DNA of 64,000 nt from Tsuneonella suprasediminis. GTDB lineage: Bacteria; Pseudomonadota; Alphaproteobacteria; Sphingomonadales; Sphingomonadaceae. Shown here one piece after another: positions 1-10,230 of the stretch; position 1 is the stretch's first letter; every line of letters starts with the position of its first letter. The notes under the pieces were generated by a model. The model searched no databases. It saw only the letters and a program-made list of their open reading frames with translations, and had not been told where the DNA came from. The translations under genes and the position numbers were made by a program. The DNA is taken from contig NZ_RAHJ01000014.1 in NCBI RefSeq assembly GCF_003605755.1, positions 124,001 to 188,000 on the forward strand, given 5' to 3'.

Positions 1-41
1 CCGGTATCGCCAAGGTGACGCTGCGCCGCTATTCAGTCCCA

Positions 42-785
42 ATGGATTCGGACGAACAATTCACGGTCGTGGATCACGCGATCGATACGCTGCGTGAAGC
101 AATCCGATCGGGACAATTCGAGCCGGGCTCAAGGTTGGTAATCGCCGATATCGGCAAGAGGCTGTCGATCAGCAGCGGGGCCGTGCGAGAAGCGATCCGC
201 CGTCTGACCGGTGAGGGACTGGTGGAGATCGTCCCGCACCGCGGTGCTTCGGTACGCAAGGTCACCGGGACCGATGTCGCCGAGATTTTTGAACTGCGCG
301 AAGCGATCGAAGGCCTTGCGGCGCGGCTCGCGGCGCGACGGATGGACGCTGACGGCAGGGCGCGTTTGCGGGCCATTCTCGCCGATCTCGATCGGCATGA
401 TGTCGATGACGACGCCGAAAACTATTTGATCGCCAACCAGGCATTCCATCAGTTGATCTATTCCATCGCCGCGAATGATCGGGTCCGCACACTGGCGATG
501 CAATTGATCCTGCCACTGTACCAGCTGAGGTTACCGCACCGGATGGCGGGGGACGCTCGCGAGGTCGCGCATCTTGAACACCACGCCATCGCCGCGACGC
601 TGATGGTGGGGGACGAGGATGCCGCCGCCGCCGCGATGATGCGGCACATCCGCAGTTCGGGCGCGAACCTGCGCGCAGCCGTCGAACTGCTCGAAGCCCC
701 CAGAAAGCGGCGGCGAGCGCCACGGAGCGCGCCTAGGCAGGAAGATACGCCGTCCCCGCCAAAAGACGACGCGCAGTCCGACTGA
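42..785 (+). CDS. GntR-family (FCD) transcriptional regulator
   Basis: DNA-binding regulator with an N-terminal winged helix-turn-helix (about residues 8-75, including the SSGAVREAIRRL recognition region) and a C-terminal all-helical FCD ligand domain carrying the ELREAIE start and three spaced histidines typical of the metal/organic-acid pocket. ATG at 42 gives a normal GntR N-terminus. A GTG at 15 and the open frame reaching the window edge leave the true 5' end uncertain. It converges on the PrpF-family gene and overlaps its last 53 bp. As the only regulator in the catabolic block it probably controls the divergent MFS/TonB-receptor promoters. FCD regulators usually respond to organic acids. 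Confidence 0.85.
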   Translation: MDSDEQFTVVDHAIDTLREAIRSGQFEPGSRLVIADIGKRLSISSGAVREAIRRLTGEGLVEIVPHRGASVRKVTGTDVAEIFELREAIEGLAARLAARRMDADGRARLRAILADLDRHDVDDDAENYLIANQAFHQLIYSIAANDRVRTLAMQLILPLYQLRLPHRMAGDAREVAHLEHHAIAATLMVGDEDAAAAAMMRHIRSSGANLRAAVELLEAPRKRRRAPRSAPRQEDTPSPPKDDAQSD

Positions 786-1866
786 AGCCCACCGACGTGA
801 AGGTGATTCCGCCTGTGCTATCGGATTTGGCGACAACGGTGACGGGCATGCTCCCTAGTGGATGACCGGCGCGCAACCGTTTGGGATCGGCGATCCGTGC
901 AGCCTGCGCCACTGTCGATCCCGGGATGCGCGACGCCGCGGCCACGCTTACCGACGATGTGCCGGCCAGGCTTTCATGCATCCGCCCCATGAACAGCAGG
1001 CGCACGCACAGGTCGATGTCGTCCGCAGTGACGATAGCTCCATCAGACGTGGTGTATCGCTGCGGCGGCGACACGATGCCCAGCATAGGCAGCCCCAGGT
1101 CGACGTCCTGCCAGCGGGCGATCATGCCCCCCGCCACGGCCACCTTGCCGCGAATTTCGTGCACCGTCGCGAGCAGGGCAGGGTCGCCATCGATCTGCGC
1201 GGCCAGTTCTATGCCCTCCATCCCCAAGTCTTCGGCAGGAACCCAGACGCAGGGATTGCCCATGTCGCACAGCGTAAAGCGGATGCGGCGCCCATCCTCG
1301 AGCGTCAGCACGTTCTCAGCCGCGCCGGTGGGGAGCAGGCGCCCCGTCTTGGCACCGGTGGTAGCGGTATAGTCCAGGACGATCTCCGCCCCCGTACCGG
1401 GGACGCCGGGGATGGTGAAATCGCCGGTCACGCGCGCGCGTCCATCGGCAACTGGTACGATTGCGGTCAGGATCTTGTCGGTGTTGACGTTGTAAATCCG
1501 CACCTGCGTTGTCGGCCCGGTCCCCGGGACCAGCCCTTCGTCGATGGCGAACGGACCGACTCCGGACGAAATATTCCCGCAATTTCCGCTGTAGCTGATG
1601 GACGCGCTGTCGATATCGACCTGCGCGAACAGATAATCCACATCGGCGTCGTCGCGTGCAGAGGGGCTGATGATCGCGATCTTGGAGGTGATCGGGCGCG
1701 ATCCGCCCAGCCCGTCGATCTGGATAAGATCGGGACTGCCCATCAGCCGGATCAGCATCGCGTCGCGCTCCGGGCCCGGTGGCGGCAGATCGCGGGCGTG
1801 GAGGAACGGCCCCTTGCTGGTCCCAGCGCGCATCAGCACGCACGGCAGGGTGATCTGATCGGCCAT
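733..1866 (-). CDS. PrpF/Mii-family isomerase (candidate 3-methylitaconate delta-isomerase)
   Basis: A 377-residue PrpF-family double-bond isomerase (diaminopimelate-epimerase-like fold). Visible marks are the N-terminal RAGTSKG motif, Lys62 in a TSK motif and Cys96 in the SGNCGN motif, where family catalytic acid/base residues are expected. The family includes methylaconitate isomerase PrpF, 4-oxalomesaconate tautomerase GalD and 3-methylitaconate isomerase Mii. The neighbouring LeuCD-like hydratase and ICL-family lyase favour a Mii-like or substituted-itaconate role; this is inference. ATG at 1866 shares one base with the stop of the MFS gene (TGATG), so the two are translationally coupled. 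The open frame extends far upstream, but that part is the shadow of the MFS gene. Confidence 0.85.
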   Translation of the reverse strand: MADQITLPCVLMRAGTSKGPFLHARDLPPPGPERDAMLIRLMGSPDLIQIDGLGGSRPITSKIAIISPSARDDADVDYLFAQVDIDSASISYSGNCGNISSGVGPFAIDEGLVPGTGPTTQVRIYNVNTDKILTAIVPVADGRARVTGDFTIPGVPGTGAEIVLDYTATTGAKTGRLLPTGAAENVLTLEDGRRIRFTLCDMGNPCVWVPAEDLGMEGIELAAQIDGDPALLATVHEIRGKVAVAGGMIARWQDVDLGLPMLGIVSPPQRYTTSDGAIVTADDIDLCVRLLFMGRMHESLAGTSSVSVAAASRIPGSTVAQAARIADPKRLRAGHPLGSMPVTVVAKSDSTGGITFTSVGFSRTARRLLAGTAYLPA

Positions 1867-3218
1867 CAGGCGGGTTCCTCGTCGACAATGTGTTGACGTA
1901 CCGCGGCACCAAACGGTTTCAACCCTGCTGCAAACGCGAGTGCTGCGGCGACCGTGGCGATCGCACAGGTCATCGCCAACCCATCCGATAAGGCGTGCGA
2001 CGATGTGAACACGTGCGTCGACAGCAGCGCGATCGCGGGCGGACCCAGCCCGGATCCGATCAGCGAGGCGATCAGAAGATAGGTGCCGAGCATCCGGCCG
2101 CGAAACTGGTTGGGTGTGATCTGCTGGATCGCCGCCGCGCCTGTGCCGATCCCGGCGGCCGCGATCGCGGTCATCACCCCATAGCCGAGGATGAACGCCC
2201 CCGCGCTTTGAACCACGCCGATCAGTGCCGCTGCCGGAAGCCCGATCAGTGCGCCAGTCAAGCCGATGCGGAACAGGCCGTTGCGTGCGCCGCGCGCCCA
2301 CATCCGGTCCGCCGTCCAGGTCGCGCACCAGATCGCGCCGATCCCCGCGATGGTGCCGACAAGGCCCAGCGCCAGCCCGGTGCTGGGCGCCGACCAGTGA
2401 TATTGTCTGATCAGCACGCTCGGCGCCCAGGCGTTCAAGCTATACCCGATCAGGATCAGCGCGCTGTAGCCCAGAAAGTGGCAGGTCAGTGCGCCCGCGC
2501 GGCTTTTGACGAAGGGCAGGATCGTCTCTGCGGCGACATCTGCCACCGGCGACACTTCGTGGCGGGCGGGCTCGGGCAACAGTGCCAGCACCGCCGCGAC
2601 CAGCACGCCCGGCGCGCCCACGAGGATCAGCACCATCTGCCACGGCAGACGTCCCGGAATGACAGCCTGCATCGCGCCCGACGAGACCAGACCGACCAGC
2701 AATCCGCCGAACACTAGTGCCAGCCCCGTTCCGACATAGATCGACATCGCAAACGCGCCCATCGCGCGCGTCCGCCGCTCGGGGGGAAAGCTGTCTGCGA
2801 TGATCGAGTTGGCGGCGGGGACAAGAACCGCTTCACCGACGCCTACGCCGACTCGCGAGACGAGCAGCATGGGGAAACTTGCGGCGAATCCGCCCAAGAC
2901 AGTCATCAGGCTCCACAGCGCGATCCCTCCCGCGGCCAGCCGCGTGCGGCGAAAGCGGTCGACCGCCCAGCCGAGCGGAATGCCCATCACGCCATAGAAC
3001 AGAGCGAAGACCGGCCCAATCAGGATGCTGATCTGTACATCGTCGATGTCCAGGCTGGCCCGGATCGGATCGATCAGAAGCGACAGGATTTGGCGATCGA
3101 TGAACGAGAAGATGTTGGCCACCGCCAGCACCGTGACCATTGCCACAGCGACGCCGCGGGACGGATAGATGGAAATTGCGCGTTTGGCCGTGGTTACCGG
3201 CTCAATCCTGGTCGTCAT
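1866..3218 (-). CDS. spinster-type MFS transporter
   Basis: A 450-residue inner-membrane transporter with about 12 hydrophobic segments. The first contains the SFIDRQILSLL pattern and is followed by GIPLGWAVDRFRR, the loop 2-3 signature of the spinster-like MFS branch common beside TonB receptors in sphingomonads. The start is fixed by AGGAGGGGGCG directly before ATG 3218; an upstream in-frame ATG (3326) lacks a ribosome site and sits in the regulatory region. It is first in a two-gene operon with the PrpF-family gene and divergent from the TonB receptor, so it likely takes the substrate from periplasm to cytoplasm. Substrate not shown by sequence. Confidence 0.88.
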   Translation of the reverse strand: MTTRIEPVTTAKRAISIYPSRGVAVAMVTVLAVANIFSFIDRQILSLLIDPIRASLDIDDVQISILIGPVFALFYGVMGIPLGWAVDRFRRTRLAAGGIALWSLMTVLGGFAASFPMLLVSRVGVGVGEAVLVPAANSIIADSFPPERRTRAMGAFAMSIYVGTGLALVFGGLLVGLVSSGAMQAVIPGRLPWQMVLILVGAPGVLVAAVLALLPEPARHEVSPVADVAAETILPFVKSRAGALTCHFLGYSALILIGYSLNAWAPSVLIRQYHWSAPSTGLALGLVGTIAGIGAIWCATWTADRMWARGARNGLFRIGLTGALIGLPAAALIGVVQSAGAFILGYGVMTAIAAAGIGTGAAAIQQITPNQFRGRMLGTYLLIASLIGSGLGPPAIALLSTHVFTSSHALSDGLAMTCAIATVAAALAFAAGLKPFGAAVRQHIVDEEPA

Positions 3219-3305
3219 CGCCCCCTCCTTTTTGGCTCGCCGATCGACGACGGCGATGTTCAGCCAAGTAACCCCATTCTGCCGATCATACAAGCATCGG
3301 AGCTT

Positions 3306-3330
3306 TAAAATGCTATCTGAGCGCATTTTA
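3306..3330. promoter_or_regulatory. inverted repeat, candidate operator between MFS and TonB-receptor genes
   Basis: TAAAATGC (3306-3313) and GCATTTTA (3323-3330) form a perfect 8-bp inverted repeat with a 9-bp spacer. It lies in an AT-rich part of the 196-bp divergent promoter region. A TATAAT hexamer at 3345-3350 could serve the TonB-receptor gene, which would place the right half-site over its -35 region. The nearby GntR/FCD protein is the natural candidate ligand, although the sequence does not resemble the usual FadR-type site. Confidence 0.5.
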
Positions 3331-3414
3331 TGGGTAGATCATCTTATAATCCTTCACTAACAGGCGGTCGGAGAATGGTCCGGTAGCGACCACACCCAGG
3401 GAGAAGGAGACGAC

Positions 3415-5814
3415 ATGACAACCCGACACCGCACGATCCTGCTGGCTTCGGCCGCCGTAGCAACCGCCATGACACCGGGCATGGTCGCGGCGCAGACAAC
3501 TCCGTCGTCCGACGTGCCTGCCACCTCCGCCGCCGGGATGGCTGAGCCGGGCGAGGTGAGCGCCGAACCGGACGTTGAAGCGGGCAGGGAGATCGTTGTT
3601 ACCGCTCGGCGTGTGAACGAATCGCTGCAACGCACCCCGATCGCGATCACTGCGCTCGGCGCCGATCAACTGCGCGATCGGCAGGTGGCGAGTGTCGCCG
3701 ATCTGTCGAGCGTCGTACCCAGCCTGCACGTCACTGGCGGATCGGCGGGTAGCGCCAGCAATGCGCAATTCTTCATCCGCGGCGTCGGCCAGAGCGACTT
3801 CCTGCCCACCGCCGATCCGGCGGTCGGTGTCTATATCGACGGCGTCTATATCGCGCGCACGACGGGCAATCTGTTCGACCTCGCCGATGTCGCGCAGATC
3901 GAAGTGCTGCGCGGACCCCAGGGCACCTTGTTCGGCAAGAACACCAGCGGCGGCGCGATCAGCGTAACGACCAAGCGCCCGACAAATGACTTTTCCGCGG
4001 TGGTCGAGGGCACGCTCGGCAATTACTGGCGGCGCGACATCAAGGGGGCGGTGTCCGGTGCGTTGATCCGCGACCAGCTCGGCGCATCGCTGACCGCTGT
4101 CAGTCGCAACGAAGATGGCTGGGGCTACAACCGCTATCTCGATCGCCACGTCGGCAATATCAACATGCAGTCGGTGCGCGGCTCGCTGAACTATTTCGGA
4201 TCGAGCGCCTTCGATTACTACCTCACCGCGGACTATACCCGGCGGCGCGAACGCAGCCGTCCGTTCGCCATCGTCGGCATCTATCCTTCGGGGACGCGCG
4301 ATCTCTACCAGAGGCGCGTCGTCGACAGCCAGTATCCGGGTCTTAGCTACACCTCGGCGCTGATGGCGGATGACCCGCACGAGGTTTACACGGGCGGGCC
4401 CGACGCCAACGATCTCGATGTCGGCGGCGTCAGCGGCATCGGCACGTGGAAGGTGTCGCCCGACTTCTCGATCAAGTCGATCACCGCATTCCGCGCGCAG
4501 CGCGCTCTGACCCAGGTCGACTATGACGGCTCCCCACTGCCGATTGCGGATTACGAGCGGGAAATCCACCAGAGCCAGGTCAGCCAGGAACTGCAGTTCA
4601 ACCTGTCGGCGTTTGACGGGCGGCTGAATCTGGTCGGCGGCGGCTTCTTTCAGCACGAATGGGCGACAATCGACAATTACCAGCCGACGCTGAAGGGATT
4701 GTACGACGTGCTCGTTGTCTCGAATCCGGCGCAGAAACCGTTCGGCATTCGCGCGCACGTCCGTCAGACCAACGACAGCTACGCCGGCTATGCCAATGCC
4801 ACCTTCGAGATCACCGACCGGCTCGGTGTCACCGCGGGCATCCGGTACAGCAGCGAAACCAAGGATTTCAGCCAGGTCGCCGATTATCTCGAGGCCAGCC
4901 GATCGATCTTCGTCACCGCCACGGGCGGTACGCTGCCGGCCGGGACCAAGCTGCAGACGCAGCGCACGTTCAACAGCACGACGCCCACTGCGGGCATTCA
5001 GTTTCAGGCGGCGCGCAACGCCTTCTTCTATTTCACCTATGCCAAGGGGTTCAAGAGCGGCGGCTTCGACGCCCGCCCGCTGGCCGGGCTGGTCGCACCA
5101 AGCGCGTTCGAGCCCGAAACCGTCACCAGCTATGAAGCGGGCGGCAAATTCGACCTGTTCGACCGCAAGCTGCGGCTGAACCTCGCTGCCTATTCGATGA
5201 GCTATAACGATCTTCAAGTCACGGCGGTACAGAGCCAGCCGAGCGGGGTTTCGGTAAACATTACACGCAACGCCGGCCGCGCTCGGATCCGCGGCGTTGA
5301 GCTCGAAACCGTTTTCGAACCGACCCCCGGGCTGCAGGTTCAGGGCAATGCCAGCTATACCGATGCGCGGTTGCGTGAGATCGCGAGCGGAGTGCCGTTC
5401 ACGATCGACGACAAGCTCGTGAATACGCCAGAATGGATCGTCAACCTGGGGGTTCAGTACAAGGCGGAGATGAGTGACGGGTCCACGCTGACCCCGCGGA
5501 TCGACTATGCCTATTCCTCGTCGGTCTACAACGAGTTGCCCAACACTTATGGGTTGAATGCTGCGGGCACCGCGCCAGTCGCGAACGGGCCGTTAGACCT
5601 GCCGACCAAACAGCCACCCTATTCGCTGGTCAATGCACGACTCGCCTGGTCCAGCGACGCAGCAGATACGTGGACGGTTGCGTTGTTCGCCACCAATCTG
5701 TTCGACAAGCGCTACAAGACCTATGGCTTTTCGTCGCTCGGCGTGGGCTATTCACTCGCCTATTACGGCGCGCCGCGCGAGTTCGGCCTGACCGTGACGC
5801 GCCGCTTTCAATGA
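3415..5814 (+). CDS. TonB-dependent outer-membrane receptor
   Basis: A 799-residue receptor. It has a signal peptide ending near AAQ (about residue 26), a TonB box region REIVVTARR (about 61-69), a plug domain with the IRGVGQSDF and EVLRGPQGTLFGKNTSGG motifs, and a 22-strand beta-barrel ending in an aromatic C-terminal strand (RRFQ). It is of the iron-complex/organic-substrate class frequent in sphingomonads. AGGAGA precedes ATG 3415. Its stop overlaps the start of the hydrolase (ATGA), so uptake and catabolism are one operon through the LeuD-like gene. Energy would come from a TonB-ExbBD system such as the one at 34815-37460. The ligand is unknown but is presumably an ester or larger molecule rather than a bare dicarboxylate. 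Confidence 0.92.
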   Translation: MTTRHRTILLASAAVATAMTPGMVAAQTTPSSDVPATSAAGMAEPGEVSAEPDVEAGREIVVTARRVNESLQRTPIAITALGADQLRDRQVASVADLSSVVPSLHVTGGSAGSASNAQFFIRGVGQSDFLPTADPAVGVYIDGVYIARTTGNLFDLADVAQIEVLRGPQGTLFGKNTSGGAISVTTKRPTNDFSAVVEGTLGNYWRRDIKGAVSGALIRDQLGASLTAVSRNEDGWGYNRYLDRHVGNINMQSVRGSLNYFGSSAFDYYLTADYTRRRERSRPFAIVGIYPSGTRDLYQRRVVDSQYPGLSYTSALMADDPHEVYTGGPDANDLDVGGVSGIGTWKVSPDFSIKSITAFRAQRALTQVDYDGSPLPIADYEREIHQSQVSQELQFNLSAFDGRLNLVGGGFFQHEWATIDNYQPTLKGLYDVLVVSNPAQKPFGIRAHVRQTNDSYAGYANATFEITDRLGVTAGIRYSSETKDFSQVADYLEASRSIFVTATGGTLPAGTKLQTQRTFNSTTPTAGIQFQAARNAFFYFTYAKGFKSGGFDARPLAGLVAPSAFEPETVTSYEAGGKFDLFDRKLRLNLAAYSMSYNDLQVTAVQSQPSGVSVNITRNAGRARIRGVELETVFEPTPGLQVQGNASYTDARLREIASGVPFTIDDKLVNTPEWIVNLGVQYKAEMSDGSTLTPRIDYAYSSSVYNELPNTYGLNAAGTAPVANGPLDLPTKQPPYSLVNARLAWSSDAADTWTVALFATNLFDKRYKTYGFSSLGVGYSLAYYGAPREFGLTVTRRFQ

Positions 5815-6611
5815 TGTCCGACGGCCCACGTCCGATCGTGATCGCGGTTCACGGCCTCGCCTGTGCGCGCGACGACTGGACGCCGCTGGCGGACAGGTTG
5901 GGCAATCGTGCAGGCGTAGTGCCGCTCGCGTTGCCCGGGCACGAAGGGCAGCCAGCGGACCCGGATTGCCAGACGATCCCTGCCTTGGCGGATTTCGTCA
6001 ACACAAGGCGCGATCAGGTGCGACGGGGGCCGCAGGTGCTGGTCGGGCACAGTATGGGCGCGCGGATCGTGCTGGAGGCGGCGGCGCGTCGTCCCGACGG
6101 TCTTGCGGGCGTAGTGATGATCGACAACAGCCTGCAAGCGGCCGGCGATCCGGACGATGCTGTCGCGGCCCGCCGTAGTCTCACCGATTCCGAGCGCGCC
6201 CGCCGCAGCGATGCGCTGTTCGGCGGCATGTTCTGCGGCCGGCCCATGCCGGATCTGCAACGCCGCGTCATGGCCGACCTCGCCGCCATGAGCCCGGTCG
6301 CGCTCGCCGCGTTCGGTGAGGCGATTGTCCGCTGGGACGCAGCATCCGCAGCGGAGCGGCTACGCACGCTGCGGGTGCCGATGCTGGTCCTTCAGGCCAC
6401 CACCGCCGAAGCCGGACCGGCGCGCCGACCGATCGGCCCGGACGAGGACACGCAGTGGACGCGACTGGTGCGGGCGCAGGCCGGTACCCGGGCGGCGATC
6501 GTCAACCTGCCCGGCCTCGGCCATTTCCCGCATGCCGAGGCGCCCGATCGCGTCGCACGCGAACTCTCGGCCTTCCTCCTTCGTGCCCTTCCCGAAACTG
6601 TAGCCCCTTGA
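5811..6611 (+). CDS. alpha/beta hydrolase
   Basis: A 266-residue alpha/beta-hydrolase-fold enzyme without a signal peptide. VIAVHGLAC forms the oxyanion-hole strand, GHSMGA is the nucleophile elbow (Ser) and GLGHFPHAE carries the catalytic His near the C-terminus. The start ATG 5811 overlaps the receptor stop by 4 bases; ATG 5814 is an equally possible start. Placed between the receptor and the lyase, it probably hydrolyses an imported ester, lactone or anhydride to release the acid degraded by the next three enzymes. That substrate is inference. Confidence 0.85.
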   Translation: MMSDGPRPIVIAVHGLACARDDWTPLADRLGNRAGVVPLALPGHEGQPADPDCQTIPALADFVNTRRDQVRRGPQVLVGHSMGARIVLEAAARRPDGLAGVVMIDNSLQAAGDPDDAVAARRSLTDSERARRSDALFGGMFCGRPMPDLQRRVMADLAAMSPVALAAFGEAIVRWDAASAAERLRTLRVPMLVLQATTAEAGPARRPIGPDEDTQWTRLVRAQAGTRAAIVNLPGLGHFPHAEAPDRVARELSAFLLRALPETVAP

Positions 6612-6622
6612 AAGGTCCATTG

Positions 6623-7486
6623 ATGTCTGCCGCCAAAACCCTCCGTGCCCTGCTTGCTCGGTCCGACATGCTGGTCGCGCCCGGCGGCTATGACGGCATG
6701 ACCGCGCGCCTGATCGAACAGGCGGGATTCTCGGCGATATACATGACCGGTGCCGGCACCGCCGCCGCGCACGGCTTCCCCGATTACGGTCTGCTGACCG
6801 GCAGCGAGATGGCCGACAATGCCGCGTACATGGCAGCGGCGACCAGTCTGCCGATCATCGCCGACGCCGACACCGGCTATGGCAACGAACTCAACGTGAC
6901 GCGCACCGTCCGCGATTTCGAGCGCGCGGGCGTCGCGGCCATCCATATCGAAGATCAGGTCGCGCCGAAGAAGTGCGGCCATCTCGACGACAAGCAGATC
7001 ATTCCCTCCGACATGTTCGTCGGCAAGATTGCCGCAGCAGTCGCGGCGAAGCGCGACCCCGACTTCATGATTATCGGGCGGACCGACGCGCGTGCAGTGG
7101 CCGGCTTCGACGAAGCGGTCGCGCGCGCGAATGCCGCGCTTGAGGCGGGCGCGGACATGATCTTCCTCGAAGCAACGCAGACGATCGAGGAGATGGCGGC
7201 GGTCCCGGCGCGCGTGAACGGCCCGTGCCTGCTGAACGTCGTGCCGGGCGGCAAGACGCCGTCGGTCACCTACGACGAGGCGGAGGCGATGGGCTATCGC
7301 CTAGCCATCTGCCCCGGCGTGCTGTTGCGCGCCGTGGTCCCCGCGATCGATGAGGCGCTGGCGGCGCTGAAGCGCGACCGACTGCAGATGGCCAATCCCG
7401 ATGGCGATGTGCCTGTGGCGGAAAGCTTCCGCCGCTTCGGAGCGGGCGAATGGGACGTGCTGCGTCGCACCTATGCGGAGGGATGA
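6623..7486 (+). CDS. isocitrate lyase/PEP-mutase family lyase (candidate 2,3-dimethylmalate lyase)
   Basis: A 287-residue (beta/alpha)8 lyase of the ICL/PEP-mutase superfamily. The Mg-binding DADTGYG motif is at about residues 81-87, the conserved EDQ follows, and the catalytic loop KKCGH has its Cys at residue 118. Those features mark a C-C bond lyase of the methylisocitrate/2,3-dimethylmalate group rather than a mutase. The expected reaction is cleavage of a 2-hydroxy-dicarboxylate to pyruvate (or an oxoacid) plus a carboxylate. The start is ATG 6623 after an 11-nt gap from the hydrolase; a GAAAGG stretch lies upstream. The family is certain, the exact substrate is inferred from the LeuCD-like neighbours. 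Confidence 0.85.
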   Translation: MSAAKTLRALLARSDMLVAPGGYDGMTARLIEQAGFSAIYMTGAGTAAAHGFPDYGLLTGSEMADNAAYMAAATSLPIIADADTGYGNELNVTRTVRDFERAGVAAIHIEDQVAPKKCGHLDDKQIIPSDMFVGKIAAAVAAKRDPDFMIIGRTDARAVAGFDEAVARANAALEAGADMIFLEATQTIEEMAAVPARVNGPCLLNVVPGGKTPSVTYDEAEAMGYRLAICPGVLLRAVVPAIDEALAALKRDRLQMANPDGDVPVAESFRRFGAGEWDVLRRTYAEG

Positions 7487-7487
7487 G

Positions 7488-8891
7488 ATGACCGCGCCGC
7501 GCACGATGCTCGACAAGATCTGGGACGCGCATGTCGTGCGCGACCTGGGCGACGATTGGGTGCTGTTGCAGATCGACCGCCACGTGCTGCACGACCTGTC
7601 GGGGCCGCCTGCGCTCGACGGCGTGCGTCGACGCGGGCTGCGCGTGCGTAACCCCGACCTGGTCTTCGCCACCCCCGATCATATCGTGTCGAGCGCGCCG
7701 GGTCGCACCGGCCATAGCTTCGCCCCCGGTGGGGAGCTGTACGATAACCTGAAGGCCTGGGCGCGCGAGGCAGGGGTCCATTATTTCGATCTGGGTGAGG
7801 AGGGGCAAGGCATCGTCCATGTCATCGCGCCCGAACAGGGCATCGCGCTGCCCGGCGTCACGCTCATCTGCGGCGACAGCCATACCTGCACCAATGGCGG
7901 GCTCGGCGCGCTGGCGTTCGGCGTCGGAACGTCGCAGAGTTTGCATGCGCTCGCCACCGGAACGCTTCGCATGCAGCGACCCAAGCGGATGCGTATCCGC
8001 GTCGATGGCGACCTGCCCGTTGGCGTCACCCCGAAGGACGTGATTCTGCACCTGCTGTGCACGCTCGGTGCCTCGGCGGCGGTCGAACACAGCATCGAAT
8101 TCGCCGGATCTGCGATTCGCGGTCTGTCGGTCGATGGCCGCCTGACGCTCTGCAACCTGTCGGTCGAAATGGGCGGACGGTCCGGCATGGTTGCGCCCGA
8201 TGACACCGTCTTTGACTGGATCGCGGGACGGCGCTTCGCTCCTGCGGGTGCCGACTTCGACCGCGCGGTAAATGCCTGGCGAGCGCTCCACAGCGACGAG
8301 GAAGCCGTGTTCGACCGCGACATGGCTATCGCTGCGGAGGCGATCGCCCCGACCATCACTTGGGGTACCAGCCCCGATCACGCCATCGCGATCGACGGCG
8401 TGGTGCCCGATCCCGACACCGCCGCCGACGTCAATGTGCGCGACGCGATGCATGGCGCACTCGGCTACATGGGGCTAACCCCCGGCCAGCGGATCGTCGG
8501 AACACCGGTCGACTGGGTGTTCATTGGCTCGTGCACCAATTCGCGGATCAGCGACCTGCGCGACGCCGCCCGGATCGCTCGCGGGCACCGTGTGGCGCCC
8601 GGGGTGCAGGCATGGGTGGTTCCCGGATCGGTGGCGGTGAAGCGGCAGGCTGAAGACGAGGGTCTCGACCGCGTCTTCACCGACGCCGGCTTCCAATGGC
8701 GCGAGCCGGGATGCAGCATGTGCGTCGCCGCCAATGGCGAGCGTGTGCCGCCCGGTGCACGCTGCGTCTCGACCTCCAATCGCAACTTCGTCGGCCGTCA
8801 AGGCCCGCAGGCGCGCACCCACCTCGCCAGCCCCGCCACCGCCGCCGCCGCCGCGATTCGCGGTGCGATCACCGATGTGAGAAGCCTGTGA
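7488..8891 (+). CDS. LeuC/aconitase-family hydro-lyase large subunit (DmdA-like)
   Basis: A 467-residue [4Fe-4S] hydro-lyase large subunit. Cluster ligands are visible at Cys349 (GSCTNSR) and at Cys409 and Cys412 (GCSMC), with the CGDSHTCTNGG substrate motif near residue 130. Length and cysteine spacing match LeuC. No leuA or leuB lies nearby, and the gene sits between an ICL-family lyase and a LeuD-like subunit, so hydration of a substituted maleate (dimethylmaleate hydratase DmdA or citraconate hydratase type) is more likely than leucine synthesis. ATG 7488 follows the lyase stop by one base; GGAG lies just before it. It overlaps the small-subunit gene by GTGA. Confidence 0.87.
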   Translation: MTAPRTMLDKIWDAHVVRDLGDDWVLLQIDRHVLHDLSGPPALDGVRRRGLRVRNPDLVFATPDHIVSSAPGRTGHSFAPGGELYDNLKAWAREAGVHYFDLGEEGQGIVHVIAPEQGIALPGVTLICGDSHTCTNGGLGALAFGVGTSQSLHALATGTLRMQRPKRMRIRVDGDLPVGVTPKDVILHLLCTLGASAAVEHSIEFAGSAIRGLSVDGRLTLCNLSVEMGGRSGMVAPDDTVFDWIAGRRFAPAGADFDRAVNAWRALHSDEEAVFDRDMAIAAEAIAPTITWGTSPDHAIAIDGVVPDPDTAADVNVRDAMHGALGYMGLTPGQRIVGTPVDWVFIGSCTNSRISDLRDAARIARGHRVAPGVQAWVVPGSVAVKRQAEDEGLDRVFTDAGFQWREPGCSMCVAANGERVPPGARCVSTSNRNFVGRQGPQARTHLASPATAAAAAIRGAITDVRSL

Positions 8892-9574
8892 GCTTTGCCC
8901 CCGTCTCCACCATCACGGGCGTCGTCGCGCCGCTGCCGCTCGCCAACATAGACACCGACGTCATCATCCGTATCGAGCGACTGACGGTCGGGGATCCCGC
9001 CGAACTCGGTCGCTGGGCATTCGAATCCCTGCGCTACCTGCCCGACGGCTCCGAAAATCCGACGTTTCCCCTCAATCGGCCGGAGTGGCGGGACGCGCCG
9101 ATCATGATTGCGGGTCGAAACTTCGGCTGCGGTTCGTCTCGCGAAGGTGCCGTGACAGCGATGCTCGCAATGGGGCTGCGCTGCGTTATCGCCGAGAGTT
9201 TCGGCGACATCTTCTACAACAATTGCTTCCAGAGCGGCTTGCTGCCGGTGCGCGTGACAGCGAGCGAAATCGACCAGATCATGGCGCTGGCCGAGCAGAG
9301 GGCGATAGCCCTGTCGGTCGACCTGCGATCGGGATCGGTTCGCCTGCCGGATGGGTCCACTATCCCGTTCGCGATCGACGGGCACCGTCGGGAGGCGATG
9401 CTCGCGGGCTTGGACGACGTAGCGCTCACCATGCGAGACATCGACGCAATCGCCGATTGGCAGCAAAGCGATAGCGTGGCCCGACCCTGGGTGTGGCAGA
9501 TCGTCGATCAACACCAAGAGATGGCAGACGATGCCAAACACCCGTCGGGGGCCGATCGCGAACTCGATTCATAG
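8888..9574 (+). CDS. LeuD-family hydro-lyase small subunit (DmdB-like)
   Basis: A 228-residue swivel-domain subunit that should pair with the preceding LeuC-like protein. It keeps the LeuD hallmarks NIDTD near the N-terminus and RNFGCGSSRE near residue 80. Two positions differ from the leucine enzyme: the Pro after IDTDxII is Arg, and the SREHAP motif reads SREGAV, so the substrate-contact region is altered. It starts at GTG 8888, overlapping the upstream stop. It is the last gene of the receptor-hydrolase-lyase-hydratase operon. It has a longer C-terminal tail than E. coli LeuD (201 residues). Confidence 0.85.
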   Translation: MSFAPVSTITGVVAPLPLANIDTDVIIRIERLTVGDPAELGRWAFESLRYLPDGSENPTFPLNRPEWRDAPIMIAGRNFGCGSSREGAVTAMLAMGLRCVIAESFGDIFYNNCFQSGLLPVRVTASEIDQIMALAEQRAIALSVDLRSGSVRLPDGSTIPFAIDGHRREAMLAGLDDVALTMRDIDAIADWQQSDSVARPWVWQIVDQHQEMADDAKHPSGADRELDS

Positions 9575-9805
9575 GCACTCGGTCGCACCTTAAGACTGGA
9601 CCGCCTTGCTCGCGATTGCTGCTCGAGGAGATGACTCGCGCGCGCATGGGATCACCAGCCCGAGCGATTGCAGATCGGTTCCGCGTCCGCAATGTGCGGA
9701 AGGCGGCTTTGCGCGTCCGCGACTCCGAAAGCGGCCCGGCAGCTACCGGCGCACTAGCCGTCGGTCTGGATCCCGAACCCCGGCCCCAAGCGTGCATTCT
9801 TCGCC
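9575..9805. other. non-coding stretch, probable decayed mobile DNA
   Basis: There is no convincing gene on either strand. The open frames here show no family signature and have arginine-rich, shadow-like composition. The stretch runs into the recombinase remnant and may be its degraded upstream part. Confidence 0.4.
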
Positions 9806-10148
9806 ATGAAACCCAGCGATCCTGAGTTCGCGCAGCGGCTGAGTGACAATCGCGAAGCGGTTGCGGCGATCACATCCCGCATCGATGTGCTGGAAAGCCA
9901 GCTTGCGCGGGGGGGTCTAGAAAGATCACTCCTGCCGTGTTGGAAAAGTTCTCGCAGCAACTTTCAGCGAAGCTACACGATGAAGACAGCACCCTGCGAA
10001 GCGCCTACCTGCGGATGCTGGTATCCGAGGTAAGAGTGTCGAAGGATCGCGTCACGATCACAGGCTCGAAGTCGGTGCTGGAGCGGGGACTGGCGAAGGG
10101 GCCCCCCCGCTTGGAGGGAAGTGTTCCCATCTTTGATCGGAAATGGTG
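9806..10148 (+). pseudogene. serine-recombinase C-terminal remnant, frameshifted
   Basis: Two frames together read like the C-terminus of a large serine recombinase. The first (9806-9915) gives SDPEFAQRLSDNREAV followed by a coiled-coil-like stretch. The second (about 9913-10147) gives ITPAVLEKFSQQL, then SAYLRMLVSEVRV, VTITGSK and EGSVPIFDRKW, a common tail of this family. The switch of frame falls at a run of seven G (9909-9915) and is explained by loss of one base. The catalytic N-terminal domain is missing. The reading frame ends at the 3' end of the tRNA-Leu gene, so this is probably the scar of an integrated element. Confidence 0.7.
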
Positions 10149-10230
10149 CGGTCGAGAAGACTCGAACTTCCACGGGCTTTCGCCCACAACGACCTCAACG
10201 TTGCGCGTCTACCAATTCCGCCACGACCGC
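10144..10230 (-). tRNA. tRNA-Leu (anticodon GAG)
   Basis: An 87-nt class II tRNA on the minus strand. The acceptor stem GCGGTCG pairs with CGACCGC, with discriminator A and encoded CCA (10144-10146). The anticodon stem CAACG/CGTTG encloses TTGAGGT, giving GAG. It has a long variable arm and the T-arm GTTCGAGTC. Its 3' end touches the recombinase remnant, so it is a likely island boundary. Confidence 0.96.

Follow-up and report, generated by a model that had tools for sequence, protein, structure and literature searches.

The fermentation of nicotinate by Eubacterium barkeri ends in three steps catalyzed by Mii, DmdAB and Dml. Enzymes of these families, predicted from their genes to catalyze the same types of reaction, are encoded in a locus of Tsuneonella suprasediminis. 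The window, i.e., the whole stretch of DNA analyzed, comprises 64,000 nt (contig NZ_RAHJ01000014.1, positions 124,001–188,000), and coordinates below are counted within it. The locus encodes a predicted isomerase of the PrpF family, a predicted C–C lyase of the isocitrate lyase (ICL)/phosphoenolpyruvate (PEP) mutase superfamily and a predicted LeuCD-type hydratase, accompanied by a TonB-dependent receptor, a major facilitator superfamily (MFS) carrier, an alpha/beta hydrolase and a GntR/FCD regulator (Table 1). With moderate confidence, we read it from the sequences as a horizontally acquired, coenzyme A (CoA)-independent catabolic cassette for a substituted itaconate or maleate. The methylcitrate cycle (AcnD/PrpF/PrpB) likewise combines a PrpF-family isomerase, an aconitase-family enzyme and an ICL-type lyase; its PrpF and PrpB fall in other forks than the window isomerase and lyase. 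Among the papers listed in literature searches, mainly outside subscription papers, no described pathway of this composition was found.

All named genes of the region 15–9574 are present and intact, with zero internal stops in the open reading frames (ORFs) and their translations, and a profile search with the eight island proteins placed every named protein above its Pfam gathering cut-off. The genes and coordinates given for the isomerase–hydratase–lyase module in an earlier, sequence-only reading proved correct. The hydratase, given there as one span at 7488–9574, is LeuC/LeuD-like as proposed but is encoded by two overlapping genes, the GTG start of the small-subunit gene overlapping the stop codon of the large-subunit gene. 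The GntR/FCD regulator is also present, though it begins outside the start of 733 set for the module. The isomerase and MFS genes lie on the minus strand, divergent from the plus-strand receptor, hydrolase, lyase and hydratase genes; an alternative start of the MFS ORF is possible ~36 codons further in.

Table 1. Features of the island and its insertion site
Feature	Position	Strand	Evidence or remark
GntR/FCD regulator, probable local regulator	15..785	+	Pfam FCD 86 bits, GntR 49 bits
Mii-type allylic isomerase (PrpF family), predicted	733..1866	-	Pfam PrpF 383 bits over 371/371 profile positions
MFS carrier (ORF)	1866..3326	-	MFS_1 150 bits
TonB-dependent receptor	3415..5814	+	Pfam Plug 73 bits, barrel 139 bits
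Alpha/beta hydrolase, esterase/lactonase candidate	5811..6611	+	Abhydrolase_6 80 bits
Dimethylmalate-lyase-type C–C lyase, ICL/PEP mutase superfamily, predicted	6623..7486	+	PEP_mutase 177.5 bits, plus ICL
Large subunit, catabolic LeuCD-type hydratase, predicted	7488..8891	+	Aconitase 512 bits
Small subunit of the hydratase, IIRIERL loop	8888..9574	+	Aconitase_C 86 bits
Probable recombinase C-terminus remnant, island right end	9937..10142	+	Sphingomonas 'recombinase family protein'
Island, in-window part	1..10142	.	Whole insert about -634 (upstream, same contig) to 10142
tRNA-Leu(gag), 3' end targeted by the insertion	10144..10230	-	ARAGORN; same tRNA in relatives L204–L207

Family placement of the three enzymes

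Among solved structures, the isomerase is closest to Mii (3g7k, 338 bits), followed by PrpF (2pvz, 254 bits) and LigU (6p3j, 220 bits). In a 43-row tree it lies within a 17-row fork (98, starred), and a larger fork of 24 rows (95, starred) unites this one with the Mii fork (84); its clade is sister to that of Mii, and it stands outside Mii's own fork. PrpF and four relatives form a separate fork (100, starred), while LigU, seven of the eight rows labelled GalD-like and two others form a further one (100, starred), and the isomerase is excluded from both. By this placement, the isomerase belongs with the Mii group and not with the PrpF or LigU clades, which agrees with the kinship claimed in the sequence-only reading. 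Six alignment columns hold Arg or Lys in the PrpF clade, and these residues are mostly absent from the clade of the isomerase. Its Lys62 and Cys96 are aligned to Lys73 and Cys107 of PrpF. In the available part of the source (PMC5690661), an S. enterica prpD strain did not grow on propionate alone when Lys73 or Cys107 of S. oneidensis PrpF was substituted, and the Cys107 variants were functional when succinate was supplied. A search of the T. suprasediminis genome returned the window isomerase as its sole PrpF-family match.

For the lyase, the nearest solved structure is 2,3-dimethylmalate lyase (DML; 3fa3, 212 bits), as had been expected, and the best chain named methylisocitrate lyase reaches 176 bits; the names carried by the nearest solved lyases are 2,3-dimethylmalate and oxaloacetate. 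The KKCGH loop is kept, with Cys118; in methylisocitrate lyase, the loop residue Cys123 corresponds to the proposed catalytic acid of isocitrate lyase, according to the accessible text of PMC7609661. A 29-row tree, in which the joining of two distant rows was flagged as a case of long branches, places the lyases of the nine core loci described below and four related ones in a single fork (96, starred). DML and OAH join this fork at 90, and the lyases of clusters that carry a B12-dependent mutase join it at 94; E. coli PrpB sits elsewhere, with two other rows (97, starred). The only other match to the PEP-mutase family in the genome is partial and isocitrate-lyase-like.

The genome encodes a second LeuC at C13:54202, 53% identical to the large subunit of the hydratase and close to a LeuD-like gene of 37% identity (stretch L188). 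Because it is the only other LeuC found, it probably serves leucine; the genome search with the large subunit, in which AcnD itself was not used as a query, gave only this protein and one 28% match. A LeuC tree of 42 rows was built, in which gene neighbours or annotation back the label 'leucine' for three rows only (L184, L187 and E. coli L192). Twelve of the 13 leucine-labelled rows, C13:54202 included, form one fork (100, starred), and rows L183 and L185 are placed on the leucine side. The core large subunits fall in a 20-row fork (94) with lyase-linked, Novosphingobium US6-1 and six other non-leucine rows; L150 is outside both forks. Within the 20-row fork the nine core rows do not group as one, L120 and L121 being apart from the remaining seven. 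The short DmdA-type LeuC, found with other PrpF-family genes, splits off at 100 (starred). By these placements, the hydratase is a LeuCD paralogue of the long type, separate from the genome's other LeuCD and from the short DmdA type, which is the one used by the E. barkeri-type module. The claim that the locus holds exactly the family set of nicotinate fermentation therefore fails at the hydratase, which belongs to another LeuCD group.

The small subunit departs from the leucine type in its residues as well. Position 28 is Arg in all nine core proteins and Pro in all 13 leucine-type ones, position 31 is Arg (9/9) against an aromatic residue (12/13), and position 87, which follows GSSRE, is Gly in seven and Pro in two core proteins against His (13/13). 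The leucine motifs DTDxIIP..[FWY]L and GSSREH are not matched by the window small subunit. We take the loop carrying Arg28 and Arg31 to be the substrate-recognition loop, and Cys349, Cys409 and Cys412 of the large subunit are presumably Fe–S ligands. LeuCD proteins with the same RIERL loop were also seen in three class relatives (L176–L178), in whose 20-kb stretches the lyase and isomerase are unmatched; they suggest a wider uncharacterised hydratase group.

Recurrence of the core and the insertion site

The core was defined as isomerase, lyase and both hydratase subunits, with a large subunit of ≥60% identity. It occurs together in nine loci, the window included, from Sphingomonadaceae, Acetobacteraceae, Tistrella and Burkholderiales. 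The others are L174, which belongs to the same family, L124 from Tistrella pTM3 (counted once together with its matches L126 and L175), L011 (an Acetobacteraceae metagenome-assembled genome), the two Cupriavidus loci L014 and L121, L044 from Polaromonas, L120 from Variovorax, and L189. As the loci were partly collected through the hydratase, the count of nine is not unbiased. At any identity, 28 sequences match all four proteins, window and duplicates included; the rest of these have a short or distant LeuC (22–31%), and they include seven loci of the SAR11 type whose lyase-like matches reach only 27–32%.

An unbiased set is given by nine loci chosen by the isomerase alone (≥49% identity). Five of them encode a lyase and a LeuC-like gene in the fetched flank, of the short type in L008 and L010 (30–31%) and of the long type in L011, L014 and L044. 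Among the other four, L009 is a contig of 4.3 kb that holds just a piece of a small subunit, and L012, L013 and L015 show no lyase or LeuC-like gene within the fetched flank. The association of the core is more than chance.

Each genome contributed no more than four scored candidates to the isomerase and hydratase scans of family, class and phylum, and no more than two to the receptor scan, so that the counts are lower bounds. Some isomerase match was present in at least 121 of 397 family genomes, own included, and only one other genome (G302, 59%) encodes a full-length close relative; pieces were seen in G126 (contig edge, 57% over 114 residues) and G300 (48% over 182 residues). The hydratase exceeded the threshold in at least 19 of 394 family genomes, own included, with 69% identity in G302 and ≤57% in the other listed matches. 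The class scan gave at least 48 of 385 genomes over a looser threshold, six of which, own included, reach ≥60% identity, and the phylum scan at least three of 398 over a stricter one, own included. For the receptor, a family scan of 395 genomes gave no match of E ≤ 1e-165 outside the own genome.

We read the locus as an insertion of ~10.8 kb that looks recent and is located at the 3' end of tRNA-Leu(gag). In relative G005, whose flanks are 88–93% identical, the site is empty, and positions -635 and 10140 map to 8850 and 8859 of L204. A 7-bp repeat, ATGGTGC, stands at -641..-635 and 10143..10149, its right copy overlapping the 3' end of the tRNA gene. In the stretches around this tRNA in G004, G005, G007 and G009, the sole match to an island protein is another TonB-type receptor in G009 (L207 12573–15050, 28.8% identity), located on the island's side at ~5.6 kb from tRNA-Leu. 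Alternatively, the relatives may have lost the segment by deletion; this is less simple, since the isomerase is unmatched in nine of the ten other genomes of the genus, the tenth having only a 44% match that falls in the LigU fork. The probable recombinase remnant at the right end has one plasmid match (36.8% identity, E 9e-7), and the Pfam search gave it no family over its cut-off.

Proposed route and competing explanations

A substituted itaconate or maleate is suggested as the substrate because the isomerase is Mii-like, the lyase closest to DML among solved structures and the hydratase non-leucine, because the core recurs, and because regulator relatives accompany it in three of the other eight loci (L174, 46%; L124, 44%; L011, 49%). 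From this evidence, together with the intact genes, the retained catalytic residues and the insertion, we infer every reaction of the route as well as its substrate, uptake, hydrolysis and regulation. The TonB receptor and MFS carrier would import the substituted itaconate or maleate, or its ester or lactone, and the alpha/beta hydrolase would free the acid from the latter. The Mii-type isomerase would shift the double bond of a 2-methylene-3-R-succinate, giving a methyl-R-maleate; the LeuCD-type hydratase would add water to form 2-methyl-3-R-malate; and the DML-type enzyme would cleave this product to pyruvate and R-CH2-COO-. The released acid would be acetate if R is H, propionate if R is CH3 and a fatty acid if R is longer, and the diacid would never be CoA-activated. 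Itaconate/citraconate, 3-methylitaconate/dimethylmaleate and a longer alkylitaconate all fit. Of the interpretation offered in the sequence-only reading, the Mii kinship of the isomerase and the closeness of the lyase to DML among solved structures are supported; the identity of the family set is not, and a C6 methylated diacid is no better backed than a C5 itaconate/citraconate, longer alkylitaconates or a tricarboxylate. That reading overlooked the island nature of the module and its presence in other bacteria.

One variant would place the route in the breakdown of alkylitaconic and paraconic acids, natural products of fungi and lichens of the protolichesterinic-acid type. The receptor would import the lactone or ester, the hydrolase would open it, the isomerase would convert 3-alkylitaconate to alkyl-methylmaleate, and hydratase and lyase would yield pyruvate and an intact (3-hydroxy) fatty acid for beta-oxidation, again without CoA. 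We regard this specific form as improbable.

Several observations weigh against a substituted itaconate or maleate. Residue 307 of the isomerase is Ser in the window, whereas the other 15 of the 16 clade members and all seven members of the Mii group have Cys. The wider lyase forks (90 and 94) are unstarred, as is the 20-row non-leucine LeuC fork. Arg28, Glu30 and Arg31 of the hydratase loop are kept in all nine core loci, and such a charged loop could mean an extra carboxylate instead of an alkyl group. For neither the isomerase clade nor the hydratase clade was a member found whose activity has been assayed. The coupling of the core to a TonB receptor, an MFS carrier and a hydrolase, which the sequence-only reading had proposed together with a co-occurrence check across genomes, holds in that these genes adjoin the core here and the core itself recurs; among the eight other core loci, the hydrolase and carrier have zero relatives at E 1e-5, and the receptor has one, 25% identical, in L011. 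With partners so rarely shared, hydrolase, carrier and receptor say little about the chemistry of the core.

Genes near the related loci add to these points. MmgE/PrpD relatives share the stretch with the core in L014, L044, L121 and L189 and are present further in L122, L123, L008, L010, L013, L015, L023, L025 and L125, and TctC-type tricarboxylate receptors occur in L014, L044, L120, L121 and L189. The known substrates of MmgE/PrpD proteins have a common four-carbon diacid core, as stated in the available portion of PMC12290011, and these neighbours fit tricarboxylates as well as diacids. A gene named 'dml' is placed in a Variovorax methylcitrate cluster in the accessible part of PMC9804861, a naming by which such lyases may serve tricarboxylates.

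The module could accordingly handle a tricarboxylate of the methylaconitate, homoaconitate or aconitate type in a variant methylcitrate or alkylcitrate pathway, which we consider unlikely, albeit far from negligible. Besides the loop arginines, the neighbours and the Variovorax gene, the score of the lyase on the NCBIfam PrpB model (283.5 bits for a cut-off of 354.4) points this way. On the other side are the position of the isomerase outside the PrpF clade, mostly without its Arg/Lys at the six columns, the separation of the lyase from E. coli PrpB, and a genome with neither a MmgE/PrpD match nor a second full-length PEP-mutase-family enzyme. The methylcitrate cycle itself was rejected, since the PrpF fork excludes the isomerase, which scores 294.8 bits on the NCBIfam prpF model, below its cut-off of 440.55, and the genome lacks that MmgE/PrpD match.

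Cleavage of a 3-alkylmalate unsubstituted at C2 to glyoxylate and a fatty acid, e.g., of 3-isopropylmalate to glyoxylate and isovalerate, is permitted by the chemistry of both LeuCD and ICL-type lyases. It would leave the Mii-type isomerase without an obvious role, and the names of the nearest solved lyases speak for other substrates, so that we hold it to be quite improbable.

A spare leucine LeuCD with unrelated neighbours is very improbable. Both subunits do exceed the NCBIfam leucine cut-offs (large subunit 583.7 bits for a leuC cut-off of 560.25; small subunit also over that of leuD), but the separate clade and the other LeuCD of the genome led us to reject it; the replacements of Pro28, the aromatic residue at 31 and His87 in all nine core proteins and the company of isomerase and lyase in nine loci argue the same way. 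Least probable of all is a branch of gallate/protocatechuate 4,5-cleavage with the isomerase as 4-oxalomesaconate tautomerase (LigU/GalD), rejected because this model, although the best in NCBIfam by bits, scores 323.1 below its cut-off of 440 and the isomerase is outside the LigU fork, while ring-cleavage and LigJ/LigK-type families are not among the Pfam assignments of the island and, to our knowledge, LeuCD and ICL-type enzymes have no part in that pathway.

Neighbouring genes and related systems

Plasmid-borne receptors are ~34% identical to that of the window (8 of 807 records listed), and relatives of the hydrolase are 29–32% identical (12 of 51 records listed). The hydrolase has a candidate Ser81 in GHSMG and His237; its PDB matches are weak (best 47 bits), and an AlphaFold2 model of the protein alone has a mean predicted local distance difference test (pLDDT) score of 38 and is unusable. 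In Phenylobacterium, a receptor–hydrolase pair has no annotated isomerase, lyase or LeuCD beside it. The contexts of these receptor and hydrolase relatives give no hint of a substrate. A search for a GntR/FCD operator at -150..20 and 3327..3414 gave scattered short matches, and a palindrome was not found there.

Acyl-CoA ligases scoring over the cut-off for 3-(methylthio)propionyl-CoA ligase are encoded in the core cluster of Polaromonas and in a further cluster from Variovorax, that of VAI-C, and could activate the released acid. The VAI-C cluster (L211 6942–17032) is of a similar style to that of the window and combines a GntR regulator, an esterase, a lyase of 64.5% identity, two Sua5/YrdC-like genes and the acyl-CoA ligase with a LeuCD of another type, whose large subunit is 49% identical. 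In Cupriavidus lacunae (L014 997–9976), the core is accompanied by a luciferase-type monooxygenase, a flavin reductase, MmgE/PrpD, AtuA, DUF4387 and a RibB-like enzyme.

In Novosphingobium US6-1 and in Methylobacterium aquaticum, a hydratase of the same type has a CaiB-type CoA-transferase and a 3-hydroxy-3-methylglutaryl-CoA (HMG-CoA)-lyase-like protein as neighbours, which are 77% and 64% identical, respectively, between the two organisms. L016 and L017, too, encode HMG-CoA-lyase-like proteins, alongside Mii-group isomerases and a short LeuC. A pair comparable to the CoA-transferase and HMG-CoA-lyase-like protein is formed in Chloroflexus by (R)-citramalate CoA-transferase and (R)-citramalyl-CoA lyase. 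Read in this way, an alkylmalate would be the product of the hydratase and pyruvate that of cleavage, so that these sets would fit the logic of isomerization, hydration and cleavage to pyruvate by other chemistry. On plasmid pLA3 of US6-1 (L118 14989–19242), LeuCD, CoA-transferase and HMG-CoA-lyase-like protein lie within a cluster annotated for ring cleavage and may form a branch for methylated aromatics that leads from citraconate to (R)-citramalate.

Among described systems, the nicotinate module is recognizable in Anaerotruncus. L018 encodes molybdenum-hydroxylase-type and hydroxyisobutyrate-dehydrogenase-type proteins, a short Aconitase with Aconitase_C, a 621-residue B12-binding protein, MutL, lyase and isomerase, the gene content that the nicotinate pathway predicts. 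Relatives of the B12-dependent methyleneglutarate mutase and MutL were seen in L018, L019 (Anaerotruncus) and L024 (Treponema) among 30 sequences, two of which are the same locus. None was found within the 64-kb window, in line with the absence of this mutase noted in the sequence-only reading; elsewhere in the genome only the methylmalonyl-CoA-mutase family was searched, with one protein found, through which propionate, if formed, could enter metabolism. The TonB and MFS genes and the island setting further set the window apart from the nicotinate module.

The US6-1 pLA3 and M. aquaticum sets share the hydratase group of the window (large subunit 62% and 68%), and M. aquaticum also carries the lyase (64%). 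Unlike the window, they hold a gene set for CoA-dependent cleavage, and a PrpF-family isomerase is unmatched in those stretches. No CoA-transferase family is among the Pfam assignments of the eight island proteins, the part of the genome searched for it. If the proposed route is correct, it represents an aerobic, CoA-independent breakdown of branched unsaturated diacids (itaconate, citraconate, (R)-citramalate, alkylitaconates) and gives a function to a catabolic LeuCD group now annotated as 3-isopropylmalate dehydratase and to a lyase group annotated merely as isocitrate lyase/PEP mutase family. The Ict–Ich–Ccl cluster of Pseudomonas and Cupriavidus likewise handles branched C5 diacids, yielding pyruvate and a C2 unit, and is described in the available parts of PMC9875883 and PMC12290011 as CoA-dependent, unlike the route proposed for the window. 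As reported in the accessible text of PMC9875883, P. putida expressing PA0878–0883 was unable to grow on citraconate or (R)-citramalate; a CoA-free citraconate route of the kind proposed here would fill this gap.

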